64,000 nucleotides of DNA from a virus. Positions 6,537-48,932 of this stretch are shown piece after piece. The number at the start of each line of letters is the position of its first letter. Position 1 is the first letter of the stretch. The notes under the pieces are model-generated. The model saw only the letters and a list, made by a program, of their open reading frames with translations, had not been told where the DNA came from and ran no database searches. Both the position numbers and the translations under genes were made by a program. The stretch spans positions 1 to 64,000 of the IMG/VR virus record IMGVR_UViG_3300042890_003865, one strand, 5' to 3'.

Positions 6537-8390
6537 CTAAATATCTTCATTAAGTATGTTACTCTCGTCTAAAAGCTGAGATTCATCTCTTTTTTCTTCA
6601 AAAAGGACTATTTTCTTCTTTCTTTTAGTTTCCAACCCCTTTAAAGAGGTTTCTAACTGGAATGTGCTTATTTTATCCTTCCTAGTCTTGTCAAACGGAG
6701 TTTCAGGTTTCATACCCTTCGATCCTAAAGGATCTCTTCCAAAAGCAGACTTGTCTGTTTTGAATATGGAAGCTTTCTCTTTAGGTCTTCCAACAGGGTT
6801 TTTTTCCATTTCATCATATCCATCAGGCACATCAGAACTAGGCTTCTCATCATTACTAGAATAAACAGAAGCAAGGTCATGAGGAGTTCCGTAAGATTCT
6901 CCAGAAAGTGCTGGATCATTACCTTCGTTTTCTATTTGATTGTAGCGGAATGTTCTCTTGACATCTTCTACTATTAGATCTCTTTCTTGGTTGAGTTGGT
7001 CTTCAGACATTTGGAATATCTTATCCCCAATCCAATCACTAGAGAATATCTTTTTATCCATTATATCACCAGCAAGGGATACTTTTTCTTTCAGTAAAGC
7101 TATCTTCTCTTGTTCGTATATTATAGAAGGATTGTTTAATTCTAATGCAAAATTTAGTAAATCAGCATCTTCAAATCCTTGTACATATAAATGAATTATA
7201 GCTATTTTTTCTAGTTCACTGATTATAATTCTTTGTAATCTTTCTATCGTTCTACTAAACCTAACATCTAAAGCACTTATGGTAGACTTTCCATTGAGTT
7301 CATCAGAGTAGTTTAAGAATGATTTAGGAACCTTTAGGGAACCTAGCATGAGATCTCTAAGGAATTCCACGTCTTCTATACCAGCGTACTCTAATCCTTT
7401 AGTAGTATCTATTTTAGTAGTGTTGTCTCCAGGACGTACAGGAATATAAAAATCTTCCAACATGTTCTGTACGTTGAACTTCAGGTTATAATCCCCTGTC
7501 TGATTATCTACAAATGGAGTTTTTTTCATTCCATTAATAGTCTGTTGCACAAACGCATTAACTTCATTAGGAGGTATATTACCTACGTTGATGTAGAATA
7601 CACGCTTCTCAGGAGCCCTCATAATCCTATGCAAAAGCATAGCATCCATCATGAGAGTATATTGCTTAAAATACTTCCTTGCAGGCTCTATGTAAGATCT
7701 ACCAAATGGCAAATAATTAGTGTCTGTTAGTAATCTAAAATGCGCTATTTCAAAATTCTCAAAAGATTCTTTATTCCTTGTAGCTGTAGTTCCTCCAGCA
7801 ACGGCTACAGGATCGTACACAAATTTAATGTATGATGGATTGTTTGGATCCTGTCCTTCTTCTCTTATCATATCATAAACAGACAGAGGACTAACATTAT
7901 ATACCCCGTATTTTTCAGCGATATCCAACTTAAGAAAGAAATCTCCGTATTTACACATAGATCTAATCCACATAGGCAGATTAAATTCAATGTTTAACAC
8001 TTGATAAAAAAGGTTGTATAAAATTTTTTGTATATTTTCATTACTACTTCTAATCTTAAGAACCTCATTAGTTTCTCCTTTTAGAGTAGCTTCTTCACAT
8101 AGGATGTCTAAAACAGAAGATATAATACCATCTGTGTCCATAGCCTCATAATCTGCATACAACTGAAGTCTAAGTGTTTGATAGTTTAAGGTAGGGTTAA
8201 ATTGCATCCTTTGGCCTGCCTTATGAAGCCTGGTAAATCTATCTACAAGAGAGTTGGTTTGTAATTGACCAAAAGACTGTATTCTTTCTACATCTGCCAC
8301 CTTCAATTGCTTACCTCCAACATTGCGGATAACCACATCTGTTGAGAATAAACGTTTGAGCCTCGGAAATAAACTTTTGTCTACTGGCAT
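6537..8390 (-). CDS. Portal vertex protein, gp20-like
   Basis: 617 residues; T4 gp20 is 524. The region with MLLHRIMRAPEKRVFYINVG (about 255-275) followed by NIPPNEVNAFVQQ is the hallmark of gp20-family portals, and LMLGSLKVPKSFLNYSDELN and the RFSRTIERLQRIIISELEK helix also fit. Portals form the dodecameric ring at one capsid vertex through which DNA is packaged, and dock the terminase encoded just upstream. The C-terminal 120 residues are hydrophilic and end in an acidic LDESNILNEDI tail, an extension over T4. The start ATG at 8390 is preceded by a late-type motif. Confidence 0.95.
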   Translation of the reverse strand: MPVDKSLFPRLKRLFSTDVVIRNVGGKQLKVADVERIQSFGQLQTNSLVDRFTRLHKAGQRMQFNPTLNYQTLRLQLYADYEAMDTDGIISSVLDILCEEATLKGETNEVLKIRSSNENIQKILYNLFYQVLNIEFNLPMWIRSMCKYGDFFLKLDIAEKYGVYNVSPLSVYDMIREEGQDPNNPSYIKFVYDPVAVAGGTTATRNKESFENFEIAHFRLLTDTNYLPFGRSYIEPARKYFKQYTLMMDAMLLHRIMRAPEKRVFYINVGNIPPNEVNAFVQQTINGMKKTPFVDNQTGDYNLKFNVQNMLEDFYIPVRPGDNTTKIDTTKGLEYAGIEDVEFLRDLMLGSLKVPKSFLNYSDELNGKSTISALDVRFSRTIERLQRIIISELEKIAIIHLYVQGFEDADLLNFALELNNPSIIYEQEKIALLKEKVSLAGDIMDKKIFSSDWIGDKIFQMSEDQLNQERDLIVEDVKRTFRYNQIENEGNDPALSGESYGTPHDLASVYSSNDEKPSSDVPDGYDEMEKNPVGRPKEKASIFKTDKSAFGRDPLGSKGMKPETPFDKTRKDKISTFQLETSLKGLETKRKKKIVLFEEKRDESQLLDESNILNEDI

Positions 8391-19415: not shown

Positions 19416-20174
19416 TTAACAAACTCCGGTATCAGAACATATATACCAAGTGTATATTAAACCTCCTCCAATTACAGGATTACCATCTACTGCTGTTATG
19501 GTAGCACTAAATCTACCATTTGAGAAGTTAGATCCTACATTTTTAGTGGTATATACTAAAAGTACATCTTTATAACCTGCTGCAGGTATTGTTATATTGG
19601 CAGTATCTGAATTAGTTAGATAATAAGGGAGACTTCCTACGCCTATTGTAGCGCTTACATCTGCTATTAATGTTCCAGTAGCTGGGGCTACTGCTGGTAA
19701 TGTTGTTTCATATAGGCCTCCGTATAAGCATACAGAAGTTCCACTAGTTGTGCTATTAACAAACTGGAGTCCGGTTAAGCTTAATTCAATAACAGATCCG
19801 ACAGGACCAGTTAACCTTGCCCAAGCCTTTCCTCCTTGTCCACAAATATTACTATATCCTGTATAACTAGGATCAAATTCTACAGATATCGGAGTGGCCG
19901 TTGGCGTAGGCGTAGGCGTAAATGTAGGTCCAGGAGTTGGTGTAGGAGTAGGAGTAGAAACAGCTAATGCTATATTTAAACTATTGGTGCAGAGTCCTGT
20001 AGACTGTACACTTATAACTGTAGAAGTTACATCAGTATTTACGTCATATCCAGCTAAAAGTTGAGCCCTACTAACCCCACTAGCAATAACTCCTAAGACA
20101 TCGTCAGATATCAAAAAAGGCCCGGCGTCTGTTCCTATACTAGATAAAGTAACTGTTGCTAGTCTTGTTGGCAT
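19416..20174 (-). CDS. Thr-Pro-rich fibre-like protein, paralogue 1
   Basis: 252 residues. N-terminal domain (about 1-72) with DAGPFLISDD ... ASGVSRAQLLAGYDV, a Thr-Pro linker of about 25 residues ([20 protein letters not shown]), then a beta-rich C-terminal domain with four Cys and a YICSDTGVC end. The N-terminal domain is paralogous to that of the next gene. Mucin-like linkers plus a distinct distal domain suggest a virion surface or receptor-binding protein. It sits next to the glycosyltransferase cluster, which may modify it. Confidence 0.6.
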   Translation of the reverse strand: MPTRLATVTLSSIGTDAGPFLISDDVLGVIASGVSRAQLLAGYDVNTDVTSTVISVQSTGLCTNSLNIALAVSTPTPTPTPGPTFTPTPTPTATPISVEFDPSYTGYSNICGQGGKAWARLTGPVGSVIELSLTGLQFVNSTTSGTSVCLYGGLYETTLPAVAPATGTLIADVSATIGVGSLPYYLTNSDTANITIPAAGYKDVLLVYTTKNVGSNFSNGRFSATITAVDGNPVIGGGLIYTWYICSDTGVC

Positions 20175-20175
20175 A

Positions 20176-20940
20176 TTATCCCTCCCATATTTGAATACTT
20201 ACTAAATCAGTAGTAGTTATATCTACTGTAATATAGAAGTCTACTACGTCTCCTAAATTAAAATTATAAGACTGGTATGAACTTCCATTTAAATACAAGA
20301 CAACACTTCCTGCATCTAAAGCAGTGTTGCTTGTGGCTGTTTTTCTGATTCTGTATATTACAGTGTTTGAAGCGCCTCCTGCTAAAATATAAGAATCATT
20401 TTTACCATAAGCAGTTGTTCCTGGTGAAGTTATGCTTATATTGTCTATAGTGCCTCCAGGGGTGCTATTTGAAACCTCAAACACACTAGAAGGCGATATT
20501 CCATCCATCACAAGCTGCGCTCTGTGTCTAACTAAAGCTCCTGTTGGTGTAGGAGTAGGAGTCGCAGTCAATGTAGGCGTTGGAGTAGGTGTCAAAGTTA
20601 TAGTCGGTGTAGGAGTAGGTGTAGAAGTTGCAAAAGTTACAGACCCTCCAAATAAAGTACAATTCAATACGAAAGTAGGAGTTGGTGTAGGAGTAACAGT
20701 TGGCACAGGAGTTGGTGTAGGAGTTGGAGTTGCTAAATAGTATACTTCAGAGTTCTGGCAATCAGAGTCTGTATTAACTACTATTATAGTAGTTGGACTG
20801 CCTGCTATAGTTACAGGATACCCTCCCAGCAAAGAAGATCTACTCACATTACTGTCAACTAAGGTTCCTACGGATACAGTATCGTAATAAATGTTAAAAG
20901 GACCTGCTGCGTCTCCTGATATAGTAACTATAAAATCCAT
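20176..20940 (-). CDS. Thr-Pro-rich fibre-like protein, paralogue 2
   Basis: 254 residues. The N-terminal domain DAAGPFNIYYD ... DSNVSRSSLLGGYPV aligns with paralogue 1, followed by two Thr-Pro linkers (about 72-90 and 105-135) separated by a short Cys-containing strand, and a beta-rich C-terminal domain (VRHRAQLVMDGISPSSVFEV onward) different from that of paralogue 1. The pattern of conserved N-terminus with variable C-terminus is typical of fibre tips under receptor selection. A late-type motif stands 5 bases upstream. It is the last gene before the sugar cluster. Confidence 0.6.
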   Translation of the reverse strand: MDFIVTISGDAAGPFNIYYDTVSVGTLVDSNVSRSSLLGGYPVTIAGSPTTIIVVNTDSDCQNSEVYYLATPTPTPTPVPTVTPTPTPTFVLNCTLFGGSVTFATSTPTPTPTITLTPTPTPTLTATPTPTPTGALVRHRAQLVMDGISPSSVFEVSNSTPGGTIDNISITSPGTTAYGKNDSYILAGGASNTVIYRIRKTATSNTALDAGSVVLYLNGSSYQSYNFNLGDVVDFYITVDITTTDLVSIQIWEG

Positions 20941-20941
20941 A

Positions 20942-22027
20942 TTATATAAATATGATTTTGTTCACTTTTGACAAAGCCGATGCTATTACTTGGTGCATAT
21001 CATAGTACTTATAGTCTGCTAACCTTCCTCCAAAGATATACTTTTCTTCTTTTTCCATTAATTCTTTGTATTTGGAGTACTTTTTATTATTATCTGTGTC
21101 ATTTATGGGATAGTAAGGTTCTCCAAAATTTTCTGGATATTCCATGGAGATGATGGTATTTTTTTGTTTTCCAAACTCAAAATGCTTGTGTTCAGTTATT
21201 CTGGTAAAATAAACCTCTTCATCTGTATAGTTCATTCCTGCTACCCCTTGATAATCAGGCATATTTAAATTGTAAGTTTCAAATCTTAAACTCCTATAAT
21301 CTAATTTTCCAAACTTATATCCATAAAAAGCATCTACAGGTCCTGTATAAATAGTTTTACGGGCTATTGAATCAAAGTATTCTTTTTGTTCAAAATAATC
21401 ACAATTTAGCTTTACTTCTACGCCATATAAGAGTTTTTCAAATATGCCAGTATACCCTCCAATTGGTATCCCTGAGTAAGTATCTTCATAATAATTATCC
21501 TCAAAAGACAGCCTTATAGGAAGCCTTTTTATTATACTTGTAGGGAGATCTTTAGGATCTTTGTTCCATTGTTTCTTTGTATACCCCTTTATAAAAATAT
21601 TATAGATCTCAGGACCTACCTGAGATAGGATCCACTCTTCTAGGTTTTTGGGGCTGTTGTTAGGTATTTTAACATCCTCTAATTTTCTAAAGGCTTCGTC
21701 TGGCGTTGTTACTCCATACAATTGGTACAGCGTCATTAAATTAATTGGAAAAGAGTATATCTTTCCTTTGTAGTTAACTTTAGGTCTGTATTTAAAATCA
21801 TTAAACTCAGCGTAGTTATTTACGTAGTCCCATACTTTTTTATCCGATGTATGAAATATGTGTGGGCCATATTTGTGCACATTTATATCGTCTACGTTCT
21901 CAGTGTAGCAGTTTCCACCAATATGAGACCTTTTTTCTACCACTAAACACTTATACCCGTTATCGGACAATTCTCTGGCGCATACAGCTCCAAAAAGTCC
22001 TGAGCCTACAATTAAGTAATCGTACAT
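20942..22027 (-). CDS. glf: UDP-galactopyranose mutase
   Basis: 361 residues, the usual length. Motifs: Rossmann FAD site YDYLIVGSGLFGAVCARELS (about 3-22), EKRSHIGGN, the conserved GPHIFHT (about 55-61), a KGYTKKQW segment (about 147-154), and the C-terminal GRLADYKYYDMHQVIASAL that binds FAD and substrate. It converts UDP-galactopyranose to UDP-galactofuranose, the donor of Galf residues. As the last gene of the sugar operon it implies Galf is added either to virion fibres or to host glycans. Strong call on motifs. Confidence 0.93.
   Translation of the reverse strand: MYDYLIVGSGLFGAVCARELSDNGYKCLVVEKRSHIGGNCYTENVDDINVHKYGPHIFHTSDKKVWDYVNNYAEFNDFKYRPKVNYKGKIYSFPINLMTLYQLYGVTTPDEAFRKLEDVKIPNNSPKNLEEWILSQVGPEIYNIFIKGYTKKQWNKDPKDLPTSIIKRLPIRLSFEDNYYEDTYSGIPIGGYTGIFEKLLYGVEVKLNCDYFEQKEYFDSIARKTIYTGPVDAFYGYKFGKLDYRSLRFETYNLNMPDYQGVAGMNYTDEEVYFTRITEHKHFEFGKQKNTIISMEYPENFGEPYYPINDTDNNKKYSKYKELMEKEEKYIFGGRLADYKYYDMHQVIASALSKVNKIIFI
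20945..20953 (-). promoter_or_regulatory. Late-promoter-like motif ATATTTATA
   Basis: Exact copy in gene sense, ending 5 bases before the ATG at 20940 and overlapping the last codons of the upstream UDP-galactopyranose mutase gene. Confidence 0.45.
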
Positions 22028-22028
22028 A

Positions 22029-22580
22029 TTATTTTTTAAAAACCATTATTGTATTTTTGAACCACCACCATTGTGGGACTTGTCTTAAAACAGATTCTAC
22101 TTCTTTTTCTCTATGAAACCCGTAATTTAAAAATAAAGATTCTATATACTCGTTTGGACGCTCATTGTAATGTCCATACCCTCCTTGTCCAATTGTAGCC
22201 CAAGAAAGTATTACAAGATTTTTAGAATGCTTTACTATGTTTTCTATAAAAATAGATTCATACTCTTCGGGAATATGTTCTCCTACTTCCAAAGATAGTA
22301 CACAATCGTAAGTTTTGCCTAGATCTACAGGAACTGATAAGTCCAAAATTCCACAAAGGTTATTGGATATTTCTGGTGTATTAGGGTTTCCATCATAACA
22401 ATCACAAGTAAATCCGTCTTGTATAAACCTCTCTGCGTACTGTCCTGGTCCACATCCTAGATCTAATATAGAATCTACCCCATAAGATTTCAGATATTTA
22501 GATATCTCTTCATTTAAAGGCTGATCATACTTATGGTTATGAGTTCCGTTGTCTTCCCAAAATCCTCTTTCATTTATCAT
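22029..22580 (-). CDS. Class I SAM-dependent methyltransferase
   Basis: 183 residues. SAM site VDSILDLGCGPGQYAERFIQ (about 35-54), then CDCYDGNPNTPEI with an acidic residue for the ribose, CVLSLEVGEHIPEEYE as post-II motif, and a late PQWWWFKNTIMVF strand. Small stand-alone methyltransferases of this type within glycan clusters usually O-methylate sugars or act on a sugar nucleotide. It starts 4 bases inside the upstream fucosyltransferase-like gene, so it is translationally coupled to the cluster. Substrate unknown. Confidence 0.85.
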   Translation of the reverse strand: MINERGFWEDNGTHNHKYDQPLNEEISKYLKSYGVDSILDLGCGPGQYAERFIQDGFTCDCYDGNPNTPEISNNLCGILDLSVPVDLGKTYDCVLSLEVGEHIPEEYESIFIENIVKHSKNLVILSWATIGQGGYGHYNERPNEYIESLFLNYGFHREKEVESVLRQVPQWWWFKNTIMVFKK

Positions 22581-23389
22581 ATTGGAAATATTTGTCCTTC
22601 TTTATATTTTGTTGGCAACGCCATCCAACTTTCACATATAACATCCTCTGTATCTTGAGGCCCCCCAGGTCCACACCAAGTTCTTGGAGCCACTACCACT
22701 TTAGAGTCTTCATTGCAAAGATAAGCTCCCCACCAAGAAAAAGAAGAATTAGATAAAATAAAATTATGGCACATTGAAATAGTCCAAAGAGCTTTCCAAG
22801 TAGAAACGTCTATAAATTTCATTTTTGGAAGTTTTATATTTTCTCTGCACCAATCCAAATCATCACTTATTATAAAGTAAACATCAGTGTTTTTTATCTG
22901 ATTGGCTGCTTCATTTATAAAGTCTGTAGTAATTACAGGATGGGTATGTAAATTTAAAAGATAATCCCCTCTCCTAACATTTATACAAGTAACTACCTCA
23001 TTTAATAATTCTGGGTGGTCCTTTTGGGTTTGTTCTATGAACTCTTCTGTTGGGGAAAATAAAAATTTTATAAAGCTGGAAATATTAATAAAATTTTTTT
23101 CGCTCTGATAATACCCTTCGTATATTGTTACCCCTTCGTCATAAGGTTTAACTGGTTCATATTGGTATGGGGCGGATATTGTCCTTCCTTGGGGCAGCAC
23201 ATTTAGCTTAAAATCAAGTTTTCTATAGACATTATCCTTATAATGATTAAGATCGAATACTTGATCTTTAGAAAATAAAAAAGGTTTGTTGTATTGTATT
23301 GACTGGGCTATGCAGTTGGATATCATAAACATTTGATTTCCTAATCTGCCTACCATTTTAGAAGTAAGAAAATTTCTATTCGAAATCAT
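22577..23389 (-). CDS. Glycosyltransferase family 11-like (alpha-1,2-fucosyltransferase type)
   Basis: 270 residues, typical GT11 length. Motifs: KMVGRLGNQMFMISNCIAQS (about 11-30, the G-R-L-G-N-Q-x-F opening), CINVRRGDYLLN (the H/x-x-R-R-G-D-Y donor-binding motif), VYFIISDDLDWCRENI and FILSNSSFSWWGAYLC, the S-x-F-S-W-W-G signature. GT11 enzymes transfer fucose or other residues in alpha-1,2 linkage from GDP-sugars. It overlaps GT25 (14 bases) and the methyltransferase (4 bases). Confidence 0.9.
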   Translation of the reverse strand: MISNRNFLTSKMVGRLGNQMFMISNCIAQSIQYNKPFLFSKDQVFDLNHYKDNVYRKLDFKLNVLPQGRTISAPYQYEPVKPYDEGVTIYEGYYQSEKNFINISSFIKFLFSPTEEFIEQTQKDHPELLNEVVTCINVRRGDYLLNLHTHPVITTDFINEAANQIKNTDVYFIISDDLDWCRENIKLPKMKFIDVSTWKALWTISMCHNFILSNSSFSWWGAYLCNEDSKVVVAPRTWCGPGGPQDTEDVICESWMALPTKYKEGQIFPI

Positions 23390-24047
23390 TTTCGTTGTGC
23401 TTTATTACTCTTTTATAACTCTCTAAAAATAAATCTACTCCTACACTTTTTCCCCAAGCATCCAAATCACTAACACCTTCTCTCTGTGCCACAGCTATAG
23501 GACTAACTAAGTATTTGTTTATATAATGCCTCTGTCCTAACCAACCATCTATTGCAGAATCTCTAAAAGGCGTGTAATCATCTATTATTGTTTTTATAAC
23601 GCTTCTTTTGTATCCTATAGCGTGTGTTGTAAGTATAGTTGGAGCTTTATACAAGGTAGTTGACACTCTAAACATTTCATGTATAGGATGTCCTCCAAAA
23701 TAAATCATATCCCAGTCTGAGAAGTTAGATATTTCATCTAAGGCTTTTTCTGATAAGTCTACTCCTTTTGTTTTTCCTCCATCATAAAAATAAGCATCAT
23801 CTTCAAATATAACAACATTTTCATATCCTTCTTCATATATTTTAGTAAAAAGTTTGTGATATGTTAAAGAGCAATAACAATGTTTTTTTATAGGATCTGG
23901 CTCTTTTATTGAATCCTCGGCGGATACCCTCTCGAAAAAACCTCCTAATCCTACTCTACTCATCTCATTTTCAAAAAAGACTTTTCTATCTTCTCTTCTG
24001 TCTAAGTTTATGTAGTATCCTTTTTGAAAAAAATCTTTTATTTTCAT
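23376..24047 (-). CDS. Glycosyltransferase family 25-like
   Basis: 223 residues. The N-terminus YYINLDRREDRKVFFENEMS (about 11-30) is the GT25 signature (Y-x-I-N-L-x-R-x-x-x-R). CYCSLTYHKLFTKIYEEGYE with NVVIFEDDAYFYD follows, giving the E-D-D metal/donor motif at about 83. In bacteria GT25 enzymes transfer galactose or similar residues to LPS cores. It overlaps both neighbours by a few bases within the sugar operon. Acceptor could be a phage fibre or host surface glycan. Confidence 0.88.
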   Translation of the reverse strand: MKIKDFFQKGYYINLDRREDRKVFFENEMSRVGLGGFFERVSAEDSIKEPDPIKKHCYCSLTYHKLFTKIYEEGYENVVIFEDDAYFYDGGKTKGVDLSEKALDEISNFSDWDMIYFGGHPIHEMFRVSTTLYKAPTILTTHAIGYKRSVIKTIIDDYTPFRDSAIDGWLGQRHYINKYLVSPIAVAQREGVSDLDAWGKSVGVDLFLESYKRVIKHNENDFE

Positions 24048-24760
24048 CTCAATATATGGATATAATCTTCTATATTAAATGTTTCCCCTAATAATTCTTT
24101 ACACTTTTTTATAAAATATACTCTTTTATCTGGTATTCTTATTTGATAATTATGGAAAGTCCCGCTTTCAAACTCTGTTCCATTTCCAAGAGAGAATTTT
24201 GGATACCCAAAACTCCCATCATATTTCCAGGTTAGATCAGAGTAGCATTTGGTAGGGTATGCTAGTATTATTTTTTTACCTTGTTTTTCATTTTCCCTAG
24301 TAAACATTTCGGCTACGTCAACTTCTGTTAGGTATCCTTCAGGATTTGGATAGTGTGTAAATTTAAAATTTTTACACGTAGACTCTTCCCAAAATTTTTT
24401 AGTAAAATTTAAAAAGTTAGGAGCCGCAAATGGTGGAGTTTTGTGGGGATTTATATCAAAAACATTAGAAGCCTGTACGTTACCATACAAAGTGCCATTA
24501 TCCTTAATAATATCAATAGCTTTGATAATACAATCATTAGAAATTGGTATACAGTCTATATCAAATAAAGTTATAGAATCCCAATCGTTATTTGAGCTAA
24601 GATATTCTTCTATTGCACATGCATGTCTATCGGCATTTAAATCATCCTTAAAAGGGATTTGACATACGTCTATTTTGAAAAAATCAAAAACTCTTTTTTG
24701 AAGAGTTATAATTTCTTTTGGCAGATCATTACCATAGAAACTAACTACTTTATGATTCAT
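24044..24760 (-). CDS. DxD glycosyltransferase-like protein
   Basis: 238 residues. SITLFDIDCIPISNDCIIKA (about 63-82) is a GT-A style strand ending in the D-x-D divalent-metal motif, preceded by NADRHACAIEEYLSSN and followed by PPFAAPNFLNFTKKFW. The fold resembles small GT-A enzymes that I cannot place in a CAZy family from sequence alone. It overlaps both neighbours (4 and 11 bases) in the sugar cluster, which supports a glycan-building role. Confidence 0.7.
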   Translation of the reverse strand: MNHKVVSFYGNDLPKEIITLQKRVFDFFKIDVCQIPFKDDLNADRHACAIEEYLSSNNDWDSITLFDIDCIPISNDCIIKAIDIIKDNGTLYGNVQASNVFDINPHKTPPFAAPNFLNFTKKFWEESTCKNFKFTHYPNPEGYLTEVDVAEMFTRENEKQGKKIILAYPTKCYSDLTWKYDGSFGYPKFSLGNGTEFESGTFHNYQIRIPDKRVYFIKKCKELLGETFNIEDYIHILR

Positions 24761-25943
24761 TTTTTACAAGGTTATTTATAAAACCAATCCACATATTTCC
24801 AACTTTGCTAACGTTAAAATTAGAAACAATATAATCTTTACCTTTATTTCTTATTTCTTCCTTTATAGAAGGGTTTTCTTCTAGAAATTTTATTTTACTT
24901 ACTATGTTATCCGTTATGGTAAACTTTCCATCTAGATCTTTAGATAAGGCCTCTTTCTGCATATCATGAGGGATTACGCCTTCTGGGAAGTCTAGCCACA
25001 CGCAATACCCGTCAAATAGCTCTGGTAAGGCCCCTAGAGGATACGTTACTACTATTGCTCCTAATGCTATCGCTTCTGCTACTACACAAGAGAAAGTATC
25101 TTTGTGAACATCTTGATAAGGTGTATATAAGGGGTATATAAAATACTCGCTTTCTGCCACATTAGTGAAAAGTGTTTTTTTATCCACTCCGTTGTGCCTA
25201 TTAAAAAAAGAATCATCGTGATTGTGAGTAGCCATAAGATAATCAAAAGCATGAAATTCTGAATCTTCAAAATTTAATTTTCTTACTGCTTCTACTGCTA
25301 CGTTTCCTCCTCTTGCCCAAGCTGCATGAAAAATAAACTTATGGGGTTTCCTTATAGGATTAGAATCTGTGACTTCTTTTATCATCTCATCCATTACTGG
25401 ATTAGGTATTAGCGTCTGTTCTATTTTGATTTCGGGAGCTATATTCTTTATGTGAGTTAGAATATTCCCAGTCATACTTTTTTCCCATTCTGATATATTA
25501 ATAAACCCTATGGAAAGATTGTTATTTTTAGCAAAATTAACAATTTCATCTACTCCGTACACCCATTGCATGTGGGACCAGTATATTATACTTTTTGTAA
25601 CCTTTATGGGAAGGGAATCATATTGATTAAACCACAACATGCTTATCAATATGTCAAACTCTTTATTTTCAATTCCTTTAAAATCTATGTGCGTATATTT
25701 AACCCCATAAAACTCTTCTCCGTCCTTATATATAATTCCATTATTTTTATAGGAGTTGTGCAACTCAGGCTCAAGCTTATCCGTTGCAAAAACAACTTCA
25801 TGTCCAGCCTTAGCCAGATGTTCAGCTATTAAAACAGAACTAGTGTCTGTTCCAGACCCTCCCCCATTTCCATATCTTAGGTTATAACCATTAAGGTAGT
25901 TACTTCTTCTGCTATTACCTATAACAATAAAGGCTATTCTCAT
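24750..25943 (-). CDS. GT4-like glycosyltransferase (GT-B fold)
   Basis: 397 residues. N-terminal Rossmann-like part with RYGNGGGSGTDTSSVLIAEH, LAKAGHEVVFATD (about 27-58), and a C-terminal donor domain with FIFHAAWARGGNVAVEAVRK, YPLYTPYQDVHKDTFSCVVA and EAIALGAIVVTYPLGALPEL (the E-x7-E-like region of retaining GT-B enzymes). This looks like a GT4-type enzyme; sugar unknown. It overlaps the next gene by 11 bases and its start shares one base with the end of the upstream gene. Confidence 0.82.
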   Translation of the reverse strand: MRIAFIVIGNSRRSNYLNGYNLRYGNGGGSGTDTSSVLIAEHLAKAGHEVVFATDKLEPELHNSYKNNGIIYKDGEEFYGVKYTHIDFKGIENKEFDILISMLWFNQYDSLPIKVTKSIIYWSHMQWVYGVDEIVNFAKNNNLSIGFINISEWEKSMTGNILTHIKNIAPEIKIEQTLIPNPVMDEMIKEVTDSNPIRKPHKFIFHAAWARGGNVAVEAVRKLNFEDSEFHAFDYLMATHNHDDSFFNRHNGVDKKTLFTNVAESEYFIYPLYTPYQDVHKDTFSCVVAEAIALGAIVVTYPLGALPELFDGYCVWLDFPEGVIPHDMQKEALSKDLDGKFTITDNIVSKIKFLEENPSIKEEIRNKGKDYIVSNFNVSKVGNMWIGFINNLVKNES

Positions 25944-27196
25944 TATATATTTTTTTCGTATCTATCACTCCACTTTTTATCTTCATCAAACAAATACATT
26001 ACTATTTTATGAGGTTTATCTATCGACTCTAAAGAAAGAGATACTGAATTCTTTTTTAGTTTTACATAATCTGAATCATTTTCTATAGTAAAATCTCTTC
26101 TTATTATCTCTGATCCTGATTTATTTTGGACTCCTAAAGTTAAAAATTTAGGTTTTTTTGATTTGAATTTTTTAAAGAAAGCAACATCCCATTCTATATC
26201 AAGAGAAAATTTATTTACTATGAATTGTTCTTCCCAATTTATAGGATTTGGCGGTTCATTTACTTTAAGAGTGTACTGTTGTATTCTACAGTTTTTAAAA
26301 TCAAACCCTCCATAGACTTCATAATCATGTAAAGTTCTACTATCTCCTAAACCATAAATACCCATATCTATTCCATGATCTTCTTGCCCAAACAATTGCC
26401 TTGTTTTGTTTCTAGCATATATGTCTCTTTCTCCAGATGTTTTTTTAGTCTCGCTTTCTATTCCATGATCATCCCAGTGTTTTACACGATAGTTTCTTGT
26501 GTATTCGTGCCACATAACCATTCTGTGTGGACTAAAGAAGTCATACCCTTTAGTAAAAGCTCTTACACTTAATGTAGTTTCTTCTGTGTACCCTCCAAAG
26601 TATATGTCTGGGTCATAAGGAACTTCTTCTATGAATTTACCTGTTGTAAAATAGAAATGTCCACTAATAGTCCTAGCTCTTATTACTTTTGTTCTTTCTT
26701 TATAATCTTGAATGTACCAAGGCATGCTCATGAGTAACTTATCAGCGGAAAACTCATACTGAGACATTAGGCATGGAGTAGGATCGTATTTACAAGAACA
26801 GTCTTTTGGGTTGAATGGGGTACAGTATGTAGTTATAATAGGCTTTTCAGAAACCTCTAAAGCCTGTGCATAATCTTCCAAAACAATGGAGTCCCAGTCT
26901 TGTACAAATCTATGATGACTGTCTATCTGTAAAGTAAATTCCTCTCCATCATAAAGTCTATTAGTTATATTCCTTGCCCAACCTAATCCCTGACTTTCTG
27001 AATAGTGATGTTTGCTTATACTAAAATTGTGCATGCCATCAAACACTGTTATGTCTTCCGTTTCATCGTACTGCCAGCAAATTCCAAAAGTTAAATTTTC
27101 TGGGTTCTTTGCCTTGGTTATCATGTCGTCTATAGTGGGAATGAGCTCAGGATCTCTATAACTAGCTACCTGAACAAATATTTTGTTCTTTTTCAT
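25943..27196 (-). CDS. GlcNAc-transferase-like protein (Skp1-type GnT family) with extra C-terminal domain
   Basis: The ATG at 27196 gives 417 aa; a TTG at 27214 is less likely. MKKNKIFVQVASYRDPELIP (1-20), then CWQYDE, YSESQGLGWARNITNRLYDG and FTLQIDSHHRFVQDWDSIVL (D-S-H as metal motif) fit the family of Skp1-like protein N-acetylglucosaminyltransferases, which modify hydroxyproline or Thr/Ser on proteins. The last 110 residues are a separate beta-rich region. As a protein-directed enzyme type next to Thr-Pro fibre genes, it is the best candidate to start fibre O-glycans (inference). Confidence 0.78.
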   Translation of the reverse strand: MKKNKIFVQVASYRDPELIPTIDDMITKAKNPENLTFGICWQYDETEDITVFDGMHNFSISKHHYSESQGLGWARNITNRLYDGEEFTLQIDSHHRFVQDWDSIVLEDYAQALEVSEKPIITTYCTPFNPKDCSCKYDPTPCLMSQYEFSADKLLMSMPWYIQDYKERTKVIRARTISGHFYFTTGKFIEEVPYDPDIYFGGYTEETTLSVRAFTKGYDFFSPHRMVMWHEYTRNYRVKHWDDHGIESETKKTSGERDIYARNKTRQLFGQEDHGIDMGIYGLGDSRTLHDYEVYGGFDFKNCRIQQYTLKVNEPPNPINWEEQFIVNKFSLDIEWDVAFFKKFKSKKPKFLTLGVQNKSGSEIIRRDFTIENDSDYVKLKKNSVSLSLESIDKPHKIVMYLFDEDKKWSDRYEKNI

Positions 27197-27258
27197 AAAC
27201 TGAATTTGTACCAAAAATAAGAAAATTTTTTAAAAGAGAAAAAACAATAATTTAAACA

Positions 27259-46218: not shown

Positions 46219-46297
46219 GTATATATATAATGGAAGCCATTACAAATTTAATTTGATTTATAATACAAACCAAATTATTTTTACAAAAAATATCAAC

Positions 46298-46870
46298 ATG
46301 TTAATAGATTTTTCCAAATTAGAAAACACAGGAATTAAAAAACCTTCTTATAAAAAGAAAAAATCAGCCAAAAATATAGCAAAATCTGATAATCAGATAA
46401 CATCTAAGGACATAGTTAGAGCCCTAAGATTGTTATTTCTTAATCATAAGTACTTGATTAACAATGCTTATATCTTTGATTGGGAGAGTGATTTCTTTTC
46501 TGTTACTGAAAGCGGATATGTATATGAGGTAGAAATTAAGATATCTAGAGGAGATTTCAAAGATGATTTTAATAAAACACAAAAACACATGCTTTTAGAG
46601 TCAGTAGAAGATCAAAGTAATGTAAAAAAGCCTAATAAATTCTTCTATGCAGCTCCAAAAGGATTGCTAAATACTATAGAAATTCCTAAGTATGCAGGCC
46701 TAATTGAGTTACCAAATGTAGGCGAAATGCCCGTTATTTCAAAAAATGCACCTTTTTTACATAGAGAAAATTCACTAAATTTGCTAAAAGATACACTTTT
46801 GGATAAATTCTACTACAGATATAGAGATTTTATAGTGAAAGAGGAGACAGAATATTTAAAAAATTCTTAA
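46298..46870 (+). CDS. PD-(D/E)XK nuclease-like protein (MmcB-type)
   Basis: The ATG at 46298 gives 190 aa; an upstream TTG is less likely. After a Lys-rich N-terminus comes NAYIFDWESDFFSVTESGYV (Asp about 61-65), YEVEIKISRGDFKDDFNKTQ (E79-I-K81, the E-x-K motif), PNKFFYAAPKGLLNTIEIPK YAGLIEL. This order (D...ExK...Y-A-x-P-x-G-L...P-x-Y-A-G-L-I) fits MmcB-like phage and bacterial nucleases of the restriction-endonuclease fold. Role in DNA repair or host DNA handling is inferred. First rightward gene after the divergent gap. Confidence 0.72.
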   Translation: MLIDFSKLENTGIKKPSYKKKKSAKNIAKSDNQITSKDIVRALRLLFLNHKYLINNAYIFDWESDFFSVTESGYVYEVEIKISRGDFKDDFNKTQKHMLLESVEDQSNVKKPNKFFYAAPKGLLNTIEIPKYAGLIELPNVGEMPVISKNAPFLHRENSLNLLKDTLLDKFYYRYRDFIVKEETEYLKNS

Positions 46871-46874
46871 AAAT

Positions 46875-47153
46875 ATGGAATATACAGTAGAAAATTTTAA
46901 AGAAAATATCACTAAAATAGTGGATAATTCAGATTTTTTAGAATTAAAATCATTCACATATGACCTATTAGACTGTGTTTATGTGGATATTTGCTGTGAA
47001 AAATCACATAAAATACACAAAATTCTAGTAGAAGGATATCAAAATGAGATAAAAAACTCAATAGAAATCTTCAATCCAGAGCATAAAGTGGACATAGAAA
47101 TGTTAGAAAATCTACTAAAAGAGATAGATTATTTCCTAGAGTTTACTTCCTGA
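46875..47153 (+). CDS. Small acidic protein of unknown function
   Basis: 92 residues, follows the nuclease-like gene by 4 bases and overlaps the convergent gene at 47136 by 18 bases. Helical, with a CVYVDICCEKSHKIHKI segment. No recognised family. Confidence 0.5.
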   Translation: MEYTVENFKENITKIVDNSDFLELKSFTYDLLDCVYVDICCEKSHKIHKILVEGYQNEIKNSIEIFNPEHKVDIEMLENLLKEIDYFLEFTS

Positions 47154-47465
47154 TTTAGAACTTCCAGAGCCGTTTAGTTGAATATTTTTGATTACAGGCT
47201 CTAAAATCTCTACTTTTTCTACTACTACAGAAACAGGCTCTTCCTGTACTAAAACAATCTCTTCTTTTTGAGGTAAATCCTCAACAGGTATAGTTCTATT
47301 TATTTTACTTTTTGAACCGTTATCAAAAATAATAGAATTTCTTTCTATATCAGAAACATTAGAAGGTGCTTTAAAAAGAGTTCCCATTTTAGAAACATCT
47401 TTACCGCTTCTTAAATTGGGATTGTTTGGGTACCTTAAACCGCTTACTTTATTTTCTAAAGACAT
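47136..47465 (-). CDS. Small protein with late-type promoter motif
   Basis: 109 residues. N-terminal SGLRYPNNPNLRSGKDVSKM, a middle FDNGSKSKINRTIPVEDLP, then Val/Glu-rich and Ser/Gly-rich ends. Low-complexity, no known domain. Its own exact ATATTTATA motif lies 13 bases upstream, so it is probably a late gene standing alone. Converges with the preceding rightward gene. Confidence 0.55.
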   Translation of the reverse strand: MSLENKVSGLRYPNNPNLRSGKDVSKMGTLFKAPSNVSDIERNSIIFDNGSKSKINRTIPVEDLPQKEEIVLVQEEPVSVVVEKVEILEPVIKNIQLNGSGSSKSGSKL

Positions 47466-47477
47466 ACGTAAATTTTA

Positions 47478-47486
47478 TATAAATAT
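47478..47486 (-). promoter_or_regulatory. Late-promoter-like motif ATATTTATA (leftward)
   Basis: Exact copy in leftward sense, 13 bases before the ATG at 47465. It is part of an inverted pair with the rightward copy at 47499. Confidence 0.5.
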
Positions 47487-47498
47487 TTGAAAAATATA

Positions 47499-47507
47499 GT
47501 ATTTATA
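47499..47507 (+). promoter_or_regulatory. Late-promoter-like motif GTATTTATA (rightward)
   Basis: One mismatch to the motif but in rightward sense, 10 bases before the ATG at 47517. Its orientation flips with the gene, evidence that the motif is directional. Confidence 0.45.
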
Positions 47508-47516
47508 TAAAAAGTC

Positions 47517-47660
47517 ATGGCAGCAGCTAAAGGAAAATCAAAGGGTTCAGGAAAGGATTCAGTAAAAGTAACTTTCGGAAAAAGAAAGAAAGGGGCTCAC
47601 GCAAAATCTCATAACAAGCATGATAGATCAGAAAAGAACTATCGTGGACAAGGCAGATAA
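47517..47660 (+). CDS. Very basic 47-residue phage protein
   Basis: 47 residues, too short for common ORF filters. Ala/Lys/Gly/Ser start (MAAAKGKSKGSGKD), then VKVTFGKRKKGAHAKSHNKH and an RSEKNYRGQGR end. The F-G-K-R-x-x-G...K-x-Y-x-G-Q-G-R pattern resembles short basic proteins of T4-like phages. Strong positive charge suggests nucleic acid or ribosome binding. A rightward late-type motif is 10 bases upstream. Confidence 0.65.
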   Translation: MAAAKGKSKGSGKDSVKVTFGKRKKGAHAKSHNKHDRSEKNYRGQGR

Positions 47661-47669
47661 CTTTTTTAA

Positions 47670-47756
47670 ATGGATATACCAGGCATCATAATATTTTCTA
47701 TTATGGGAATAATAACCGTTGCCGCTATATTCATTCCTTCTAAAAAAAGGAAGTAG
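47670..47756 (+). CDS. 28-residue single-span membrane peptide
   Basis: ATG at 47670, TAG at 47754-47756. MDIPGIIIFSIMGIITVAAI then FIPSKKRK: one membrane span with a basic end, so N-terminus outside. Starts 9 bases after the preceding stop and ends 17 bases before the heme oxygenase. Size and topology resemble small inhibitors or regulatory peptides. Coding status is probable, function unknown. Confidence 0.45.
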   Translation: MDIPGIIIFSIMGIITVAAIFIPSKKRK

Positions 47757-47773
47757 TATATTAAAATTAAAAT

Positions 47774-48292
47774 ATGATTTCATTAAGAGAGGCGACAGGC
47801 GAAAAGCATAAGATTGCTGAAAGCATGTTGTTTAATCAAAGGCTGGTTAAAGGAGATCTTTCAAAAGATGAATACATAGCGCATCTAACACAGCAATTAG
47901 CAATATTCGATACTATTGAAGTTCGTGAATTACCTCACCCATCTTTGAAACGATCCAATAAAATAGTTGAGGATATTAAAGAATTATTTGGTAATGAAAT
48001 AATCCAAATTACAATATTATCGTCAACTAAAGAGTATACAAAATATCTAGATACTCTTACTCAAGAACAACTTTTACCGCACATATATCTAAATTATTTA
48101 GCAATTATTTATGGTGGACAGTTGATAAAAAAGAATATACACGGTAGCGGTAAGATGTATGAATTTGATGGTGATGTAAAAGAAATTGCCGGAACGATTA
48201 GAGCAATTCAAAAAGACGAGTGGGCTGATGAAGTTAATACTGGCTTTGATTATATTATAAAAATTTACGATGAGTTACAAAAGTATCCTTGA
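47774..48292 (+). CDS. Heme oxygenase-like protein (biliverdin-forming)
   Basis: 172 residues; bacterial and phage enzymes are usually 200-240, so it is short. The start ISLREATGEKHKIAESMLFN (2-21) matches the family opening with the proximal heme-ligand His at residue 12; QRLVKGDLSKDEYIAHLTQQ and LPHIYLNYLAIIYGGQLIKK (about 100-120, the G-G-Q helix over the distal heme face) follow. It would open heme to biliverdin, CO and iron, using reduced ferredoxin. The next gene, a bilin reductase, overlaps it by 23 bases, which strongly supports the call. Confidence 0.87.
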   Translation: MISLREATGEKHKIAESMLFNQRLVKGDLSKDEYIAHLTQQLAIFDTIEVRELPHPSLKRSNKIVEDIKELFGNEIIQITILSSTKEYTKYLDTLTQEQLLPHIYLNYLAIIYGGQLIKKNIHGSGKMYEFDGDVKEIAGTIRAIQKDEWADEVNTGFDYIIKIYDELQKYP

Positions 48293-48899
48293 TAATATAG
48301 CAAACACTGTTCAAGAGGTTATTATAAATAAAGGAGAGGGGTTACAAATAGAGATAGAGAACTTCGGATGGACTAATCTTATATACGAATCTAAACATTT
48401 TAGATTTGCACATATAGAAAGGTACTCAGATAAAAACCTAGAAGTTTTACATGTGACTACGTTTCCTAAAGAAACTAGCCCTAATCCAATATTTGGATTT
48501 GATGTCATTACGACAGATAAAAAACCCCTTGCGGCATTTTTAGATTATTCCCCAGTAGTAGATAAAATTACATACAGATCAAATAAAATATTTGAAAAGC
48601 CATACAACTTACCTGATTGGGCTAAAAAAATATTTTCTAATCATGCAATAGCAATAGTTCCAAATGAAAAAGACATGGAGGATTTGTCTGAAGTAGTCAA
48701 GGACGCTTATAGCAAATACATTGATTTGTGCATAGAAGAACAATCTGTAGTGGATACAGAAGTAATTAAAGAAAGACAAAATTACTACTGTGAACAACAA
48801 CAAAAGAATGAACGTACTTTTAATGTATTAAAAGCTAAACTAGGAGAAGATAGAGCTAGATATTTTATGAATACAATTTTGTTCCCGAAAATAAAATAA
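48270..48899 (+). CDS. Ferredoxin-dependent bilin reductase (PcyA/PebS/PcyX family)
   Basis: 209 residues. KHFRFAHIERYSDKNLEVLH (43-61), TTFPKETSPNPIFGFDVITT (63-82), PLAAFLDYSPVVDK and the C-terminal NYYCEQQQKNERTFNVLKAK, LGEDRARYFMNTILF match the FDBR family. Residues Glu50, His61 and Asp78 align by motif with the Glu76, His88 and Asp105 active site of PcyA; PebS lacks the His. It should reduce biliverdin to a phycobilin, but which one cannot be read. It overlaps the heme oxygenase by 23 bases and ends at a terminator. Confidence 0.88.
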   Translation: MSYKSILDNIANTVQEVIINKGEGLQIEIENFGWTNLIYESKHFRFAHIERYSDKNLEVLHVTTFPKETSPNPIFGFDVITTDKKPLAAFLDYSPVVDKITYRSNKIFEKPYNLPDWAKKIFSNHAIAIVPNEKDMEDLSEVVKDAYSKYIDLCIEEQSVVDTEVIKERQNYYCEQQQKNERTFNVLKAKLGEDRARYFMNTILFPKIK

Positions 48900-48903
48900 A
48901 AAG

Positions 48904-48932
48904 GCCTAGGGGTTTCCTAGGCTTCTTTTTTT
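48904..48932. terminator. Bidirectional intrinsic terminator after bilin operon
   Basis: GCCTAGG - GGTTT - CCTAGGC (7 bp) followed by TTCTTTTTTT rightward; in the leftward sense the same stem is followed by CTTTTTATTTTATTTT. It overlaps the last codons of the convergent gene at 48917, ending both operons. Confidence 0.85.

Follow-up and report, generated by a model that had tools for sequence, protein, structure and literature searches.

The locus described here raises the question of why a phage that is probably not a cyanophage should carry two adjoining genes for the conversion of heme to a bilin, and what such enzymes would do for it. The pair lies in a 64,000-nucleotide stretch of viral DNA (the window; positions 1 to 64,000 of IMG/VR record IMGVR_UViG_3300042890_003865, a virus contig of 65,248 bp), and the same locus is present, letter for letter, in an IMG/VR contig of 136,878 bp. 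The favored answer, to which we assign a probability of roughly two in three (0.66), is that the two genes are a translationally coupled auxiliary metabolic cassette of an immuto-related T4-like phage, in which a heme oxygenase (HO) that lacks the distal Arg/Asp relay would convert heme to biliverdin IXalpha and a bilin reductase (FDBR) would convert biliverdin to a phycobilin. The protein families and folds, the retained ligands and catalytic residues, the conserved pairing, the purifying selection and the kinship of the phage are all read from sequence and are set out first.

The HO gene (47,774–48,292, plus strand; 172 aa) matches Pfam Heme_oxygenase (PF01126; E = 1.9e-15) at 57.7 bits against a curated cut-off of 23, and the PcyA-type FDBR gene (48,270–48,899, plus strand; 209 aa) matches Fe_bilin_red (PF05996; E = 2.2e-26) at 93.4 bits against a curated cut-off of 31, so the pair is not a chance match. 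An earlier note on this DNA had reported two ORFs overlapping by 23 bp, which the coordinates confirm (48,270–48,292, plus strand), and the motifs that it gave, His12 and GGQ (114–116) in the HO and Glu50, His61, Asp78 and Asp92 in the FDBR, are all at those positions. The common terminator that it placed after the pair is an intrinsic one, a hairpin followed by a T-run at 48,902–48,924 (given on the plus strand) that reads in both directions (two found, 0.6 expected). The two genes belong to a plus-strand island (46,253–48,899) flanked on both sides by minus-strand operons; the first gene of the island is PHROG 2776/5429-like (DNA repair protein; 46,253–46,870), followed by an ORF at 46,875–47,153 and two short ORFs at 47,517–47,660 and 47,670–47,756, all on the plus strand. 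With a GC content of 0.31, the pair differs by no more than about one SD from the window genes (0.345, SD 0.037). Elsewhere, the window contains a glycan cluster (19,416–27,214) with a UDP-galactopyranose mutase gene (20,942–22,027) and several glycosyltransferase genes.

The overlapping HO-FDBR order recurs in nearly all members of the group to which the window belongs (the window group), with overlaps of 1–68 bp, some of which depend on the choice of start, and the two genes co-occur across deeply diverged phages; about 50 pairs are conserved. Both are under purifying selection, because dN/dS is 0.17–0.39 for HO and 0.04–0.22 for FDBR, and chance or decayed genes are ruled out by this conservation together with the dN/dS values. 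For both proteins, AlphaFold2 gave confident models from 45-sequence viral alignments, with a pLDDT of 94.9 for FDBR and of 95.7 for HO, which has the all-helical HO fold (TM 0.83 to Synechocystis HO-1, 1we1). Hence the proposal of a two-gene bilin pathway made in the earlier note is borne out by family matches, catalytic residues, confident folds and the conserved pairs.

What had been overlooked is the distal site of the HO. In the alignment, Arg136, Gly139 and Asp140 of human HO-1 are replaced in the window HO by Asn107, Ala110 and Ile111, such that the distal helix (Asn107–Gln116, codons at 48,092–48,121, plus strand) reads NYLAIIYGGQ where a canonical HO has RYLGDLSGGQ. Among 106 distinct viral HOs, which were gathered with N-terminal search patterns that are hence neutral toward the Asp, this residue is absent in all nine from the window group and present in all 97 others. 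A wider search using group alignments gave 53 distinct Asp-less HOs, 51 of which align well, numbers that describe the group and not a natural frequency, as one HO pattern in this second search overlapped the changed helix. The Asp140 site is Ile, Leu, Met or Phe in each of the 51 well-aligned variants, and Pro and Trp are found there in the long-branch Asp-less rows L368 and L372. As judged from these alignments, the distinguishing trait is a purely hydrophobic residue at the Asp140 site of an HO-1-like protein. Loss of the Asp requires at least two changes in the HO tree, which includes the long-branch rows, and the phages that carry Asp-less HOs fall on one side of a branch in the FDBR tree. 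A deeper Asp-less branch (L361, L363, L365, L367, L374 and L375) retains Gly at the Gly139 site; in this branch a terminase was found for the L375 record alone, and it shares just 29% identity with that of the window, and Asp loss may thus reach beyond the immuto-like phages.

The distal Arg/Asp relay is missing in 51 of 51 well-aligned variants, and the Asp140His mutation significantly lowers the activity of human HO-1 (PMC7948506), so an enzyme with Ile, Leu or Met at this site might be weak or different. The Asp-less proteins could even be heme-binding or peroxidase-like and inefficient in forming biliverdin, with the FDBR fed from another source of biliverdin. We consider this unlikely, however, given that the proximal heme ligand His12 (codon at 47,807–47,809, plus strand), which is invariant across the aligned HOs, its partner Glu16, as well as Tyr105, Arg143 and the GG kink (Gly114 and Gly115), are invariant throughout the group, and that the HO is co-inherited with the FDBR in overlapping genes. 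Tyr105 and Arg143 align with propionate ligands, and these ligands have likely been kept. In addition, the Arg/Asp relay is not universal among HOs, since plant HO-1 has neither Arg136 nor Asp140, uses Ala149 and His150 instead, and is still a heme oxygenase (PMC7948506), and several bacterial Pfam-HO homologues in the survey are likewise without the GD..GG motif. If the window protein is a functional heme oxygenase, as is preferred here, proton delivery must take another route because the relay is missing, and this could be provided by water or by the backbone in the GG-kinked helix, in a manner comparable to the plant HO-1 network.

The active site of the FDBR is PcyA-like. By alignment, His48 and Glu50 (within His48-Ile49-Glu50; 48,411–48,419), His61 (48,450–48,452), Asp78 (48,501–48,503; all on the plus strand), Asn180 and Val186 correspond to His74, Glu76, His88, Asp105, Asn219 and Val225 of PcyA, while Glu181 occupies the Asp220 site, and the three PcyA test residues (Glu76, His88 and Asp105, Synechocystis numbering) are therefore all matched. 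In PcyX, Asp stands in place of Glu76. According to Wegner et al. (2024), Asp55 is the PcyX-specific catalytic residue, and the CB_2 enzyme, which lacks it, was shown to form phycocyanobilin (PMC11480375); our own alignment places Asp55 at the PcyA Glu76 site. Because the PcyA-type catalytic residues are kept, with Glu at the Glu76 site, phycocyanobilin is the most likely product predicted for the window FDBR, and Glu is found at this site in every FDBR that accompanies an Asp-less HO. Two other active-site variants were seen among viral FDBRs, namely Lys at the PcyA Glu76 site in L121, L127, L132 and L137, which adjoin canonical HOs and represent a third state alongside Glu and Asp, and Glu at the Asp55 site in L003 and L004, which are within the PcyX grouping and possibly reflect a reversal to PcyA-type chemistry.

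Phycoerythrobilin would be expected instead if the FDBR were PcyX-like, and its top sequence match in the PDB is indeed PcyX (5owg, 88 bits), ahead of Synechocystis PcyA (63) and PebS (21). The NCBIfam PcyA equivalog model gives 104 bits, under its cut-off of 206. In the structure search, however, PcyA came first (TM 0.86 to the Nostoc enzyme, 2g18) and PcyX reached 0.70, the window FDBR has Glu50 in place of the PcyX-specific Asp, and a tree in which eight members of the window group are made to cluster with PcyX fails the AU test (p 5.7e-46). The Glu residue and the AU test rule out membership of the PcyX group, and a PcyX-like enzyme making phycoerythrobilin is quite improbable.

The FDBR belongs to its superfamily by profile and fold, and the phylogeny that the earlier note had called for places it neither with PcyX nor with cyanobacterial PcyA, but in a separate group. 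A tree of 67 rows separates the window group (8 rows, support 96/94) from the other 53 viral FDBRs, PcyX among them, and a 90-row tree, the root of which is uncertain as the only outgroup tried is a very long branch, contains three unmixed sets, with 5 rows of cyanobacterial and cyanophage PcyA, 32 of the window group and 53 of other viral FDBRs. The 32 window-group rows are on one side of a branch with a support of 85, and a core of 30 rows has a support of 97. On this sequence evidence the HO-FDBR pair is a separate lineage, distinct from PcyX and from cyanobacterial PcyA, with CB_2 compared by description only. A bacterial source of the FDBR was also sought, and as one scan of genome contigs and a Pseudomonadota sample gave only one close match, in a Rickettsiales MAG fragment, and a plasmid search gave none, no donor is put forward. 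The Rickettsiales match (L171; PALK01000009.1) is an HO with a partial FDBR on a 29.9-kb contig that is possibly itself a phage contig.

The phage backbone bears on the identity of the host. The terminase large subunit (8,433–10,025, minus strand; PHROG 2, E = 8e-52) matches those of Flavobacterium phage immuto and of phage Mel-JY01 at 48 and 45%, respectively, and the portal protein (6,537–8,390, minus strand; PHROG 213, E = 4e-59) at 57 and 50%, while the 137-kb contig that contains the identical locus has 59 reciprocal best hits with immuto (mean 42%) and 47 with Mel-JY01 (38%). Genes in common with immuto are also present in the other carriers tested (G002, G751, G752, G756/G760 and G759). 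Core-group terminases that are uninterrupted (G751, G760, G766, G772, G783 and G787) score 478–513 bits and that of G752, with one in-frame stop, scores 490, compared to 182–202 bits for contigs outside the group (G762, G803 and G808); G788, with a split terminase of 30–37% identity, is the exception within the group. In several carriers the HO-FDBR pair adjoins thymidylate synthase, queC/queE or groES/groEL homologues that are also found in immuto, and because its location in the window differs from these neighborhoods, the pair has moved between genome sites.

A Shine-Dalgarno sequence precedes 6% of the starts in the window phage and 2% in immuto vs. 64% in Pelagibacter phage Mosig, and the start regions of the window phage are A-rich, as they are in immuto; Bacteroidetes gene starts are known to be A-rich and without Shine-Dalgarno sequences (PMC6847099). 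The immuto-like backbone and these starts support the earlier view of a probable non-cyanophage. The promoters were searched with TTG-N20-TAnnTTTG, in which TAnnTTTG is the flavobacterial sigma-A type -7 box (PMC9723704). A 270-kb carrier (G760) has 28 such intergenic sites at a single spacing, compared with 7 antisense sites when every spacing is counted and with 1.6 after shuffling, but the signal in the window phage is weak (4 sense, 2 antisense, 0.66 shuffled) and immuto itself has no such promoters. The motif search found no convincing Bacteroidota promoter for the HO-FDBR pair, and sigma70 and T4-late motifs gave no useful enrichment. Since the promoter signal is weak in the window and absent in immuto, the case for the host phylum is built on kinship and start context, which point to a Bacteroidota bacterium as the likely host. 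Immuto-related phages make up most of the carriers, and Bacteroidota are likely a new host group for the cassette.

Mel-JY01 is filed under Microcystis elabens, and its 47 common genes might be taken to indicate a cyanobacterial host, for which the phage would supply pigment to phycobilisomes as cyanophages do. This is very improbable: immuto, a Flavobacterium isolate, is no more distant than Mel-JY01 (59 genes in common at 42%), phycobiliprotein families have no match in 12 carriers, the FDBR is outside the cyanophage PcyA group, and the filed host is doubtful because Mel-JY01 carries 20 Bacteroidota-type promoters. These are intergenic TTG-N20-TAnnTTTG sites, all with the same exact spacing (PP395634.1; L188–L191), and the filing under Microcystis elabens may be wrong, although 30% of the Mel-JY01 starts are Shine-Dalgarno-like, which is odd for Bacteroidota. 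Cyanophage origin of the window is ruled out by the backbone, the promoter pattern of Mel-JY01 and the FDBR tree.

We infer the enzyme activities, the product, the host phylum and the use in the cell from these features. The HO would cleave the alpha position of host heme, yielding biliverdin IXalpha, CO and iron, and the FDBR would use four electrons from host ferredoxin to reduce biliverdin to the phycobilin. The electrons must come from the host because no Fer2 [2Fe-2S] ferredoxin gene was found in the 12 carrier records, some of which are fragments, and the same records gave no phytochrome PHY-domain gene, no match to phycobiliprotein or phycobilisome families and no match to an AlaS-type aminotransferase (PF00155). 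Without phycobilisome, PHY or ferredoxin genes in these 12 records, light harvesting is unlikely and a sensor role is unsupported. The latter had been suggested in the earlier note, with the bilin as the chromophore of a host bacteriophytochrome or another bilin sensor through which the phage would steer the light responses of its host, and the product of CB_2 PcyA did assemble a functional phytochrome in the laboratory (PMC11480375). Yet no PHY-domain gene accompanies the window-type cassette in those 12 records and no sensor is among the few annotated neighbors, which makes such a role rather unlikely. The preferred and simplest remaining role is heme turnover with iron release, in which biliverdin would be disposed of as a reduced bilin during infection, and an iron role for such cassettes was also discussed by the authors of PMC11480375. 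In two distant records only, an FTR1-family iron permease gene is near the HO-FDBR pair (L003:8070-8663 and L004:8480-9073), and the L003 region also has a gene for an Fe-S assembly protein.

Viral HO-FDBR cassettes outside the cyanophages are already known (PMC11480375; Pelagibacter phage Mosig) and are common in IMG/VR, and the earlier note therefore overstated how unusual the pair is. What is new is a separate cassette lineage with a consistent change in the HO distal site and a home in mostly immuto-like phages, and a search of the open literature found no paper that brings together bilin reductase, phage and Bacteroidetes. Viral bilin synthesis is thereby extended, probably, to phages of Bacteroidota, in which phycobilisomes are not expected, and this sharpens the question of what purpose the cassette serves outside photosynthesis. 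The bolder reading, of a large undescribed lineage of Bacteroidota-phage bilin cassettes in which a hydrophobic-distal HO with novel proton delivery is matched to its own FDBR lineage, is put forward tentatively. The approximately 50 natural Asp-less HOs offer a ready test of whether the distal Asp is essential, and the Glu/Asp split between the window FDBR group and PcyX a direct test of the choice between phycocyanobilin and phycoerythrobilin.

Among known systems, Flavobacterium phage vB_FspM_immuto (Immutovirus) is similar to the window phage in its backbone (59 genes in common at 42%) but has no match to HO or FDBR. Cyanobacterial and cyanophage PcyA have the catalytic residues and fold in common with the window FDBR, but the cyanophage enzymes are only about 26–34% identical to it and separate in the tree, and the window FDBR (209 aa) has a shorter N-terminal part; no HO is annotated beside pcyA in the four cyanophage loci examined. 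The viral hemO-pcyX/pcyA(-valaS) cassettes, known from marine and freshwater phages for which SAR11, Methylocystis or Methyloparacoccus hosts were proposed (Wegner et al., 2024; PMC11480375), resemble the window pair in that HO and FDBR are adjacent in non-cyanophage phages, and in the window group, too, the genes are adjacent, usually overlapping, and in a T4-like phage. The window differs from them in its immuto-like backbone, in the lack of an AlaS-type aminotransferase in 12 carriers, and in an HO without the distal Asp that all 97 other viral HOs have. The cassette of the freshwater phage CB_2, the HemO of which produces biliverdin IXalpha and which yields phycocyanobilin (PMC11480375), resembles the window, according to its published description, in an FDBR that lacks the PcyX Asp. 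Pelagibacter phage Mosig (MT647606), also T4-like, has HO and PcyX in the same order in overlapping genes, but the identities are 37% for FDBR and 28% for HO, and Mosig has Asp at the key FDBR site and a canonical GDLSGGQ in its HO. For the HO itself, a close parallel is plant-type HO-1 (GmHO-1, PDB 7CKA), in which the equivalents of Arg136 and Asp140 are both absent and Ala precedes the Asp site, as in the window protein, but where the plant enzyme has His at the Asp site the window group has Ile, Leu, Met or Phe.
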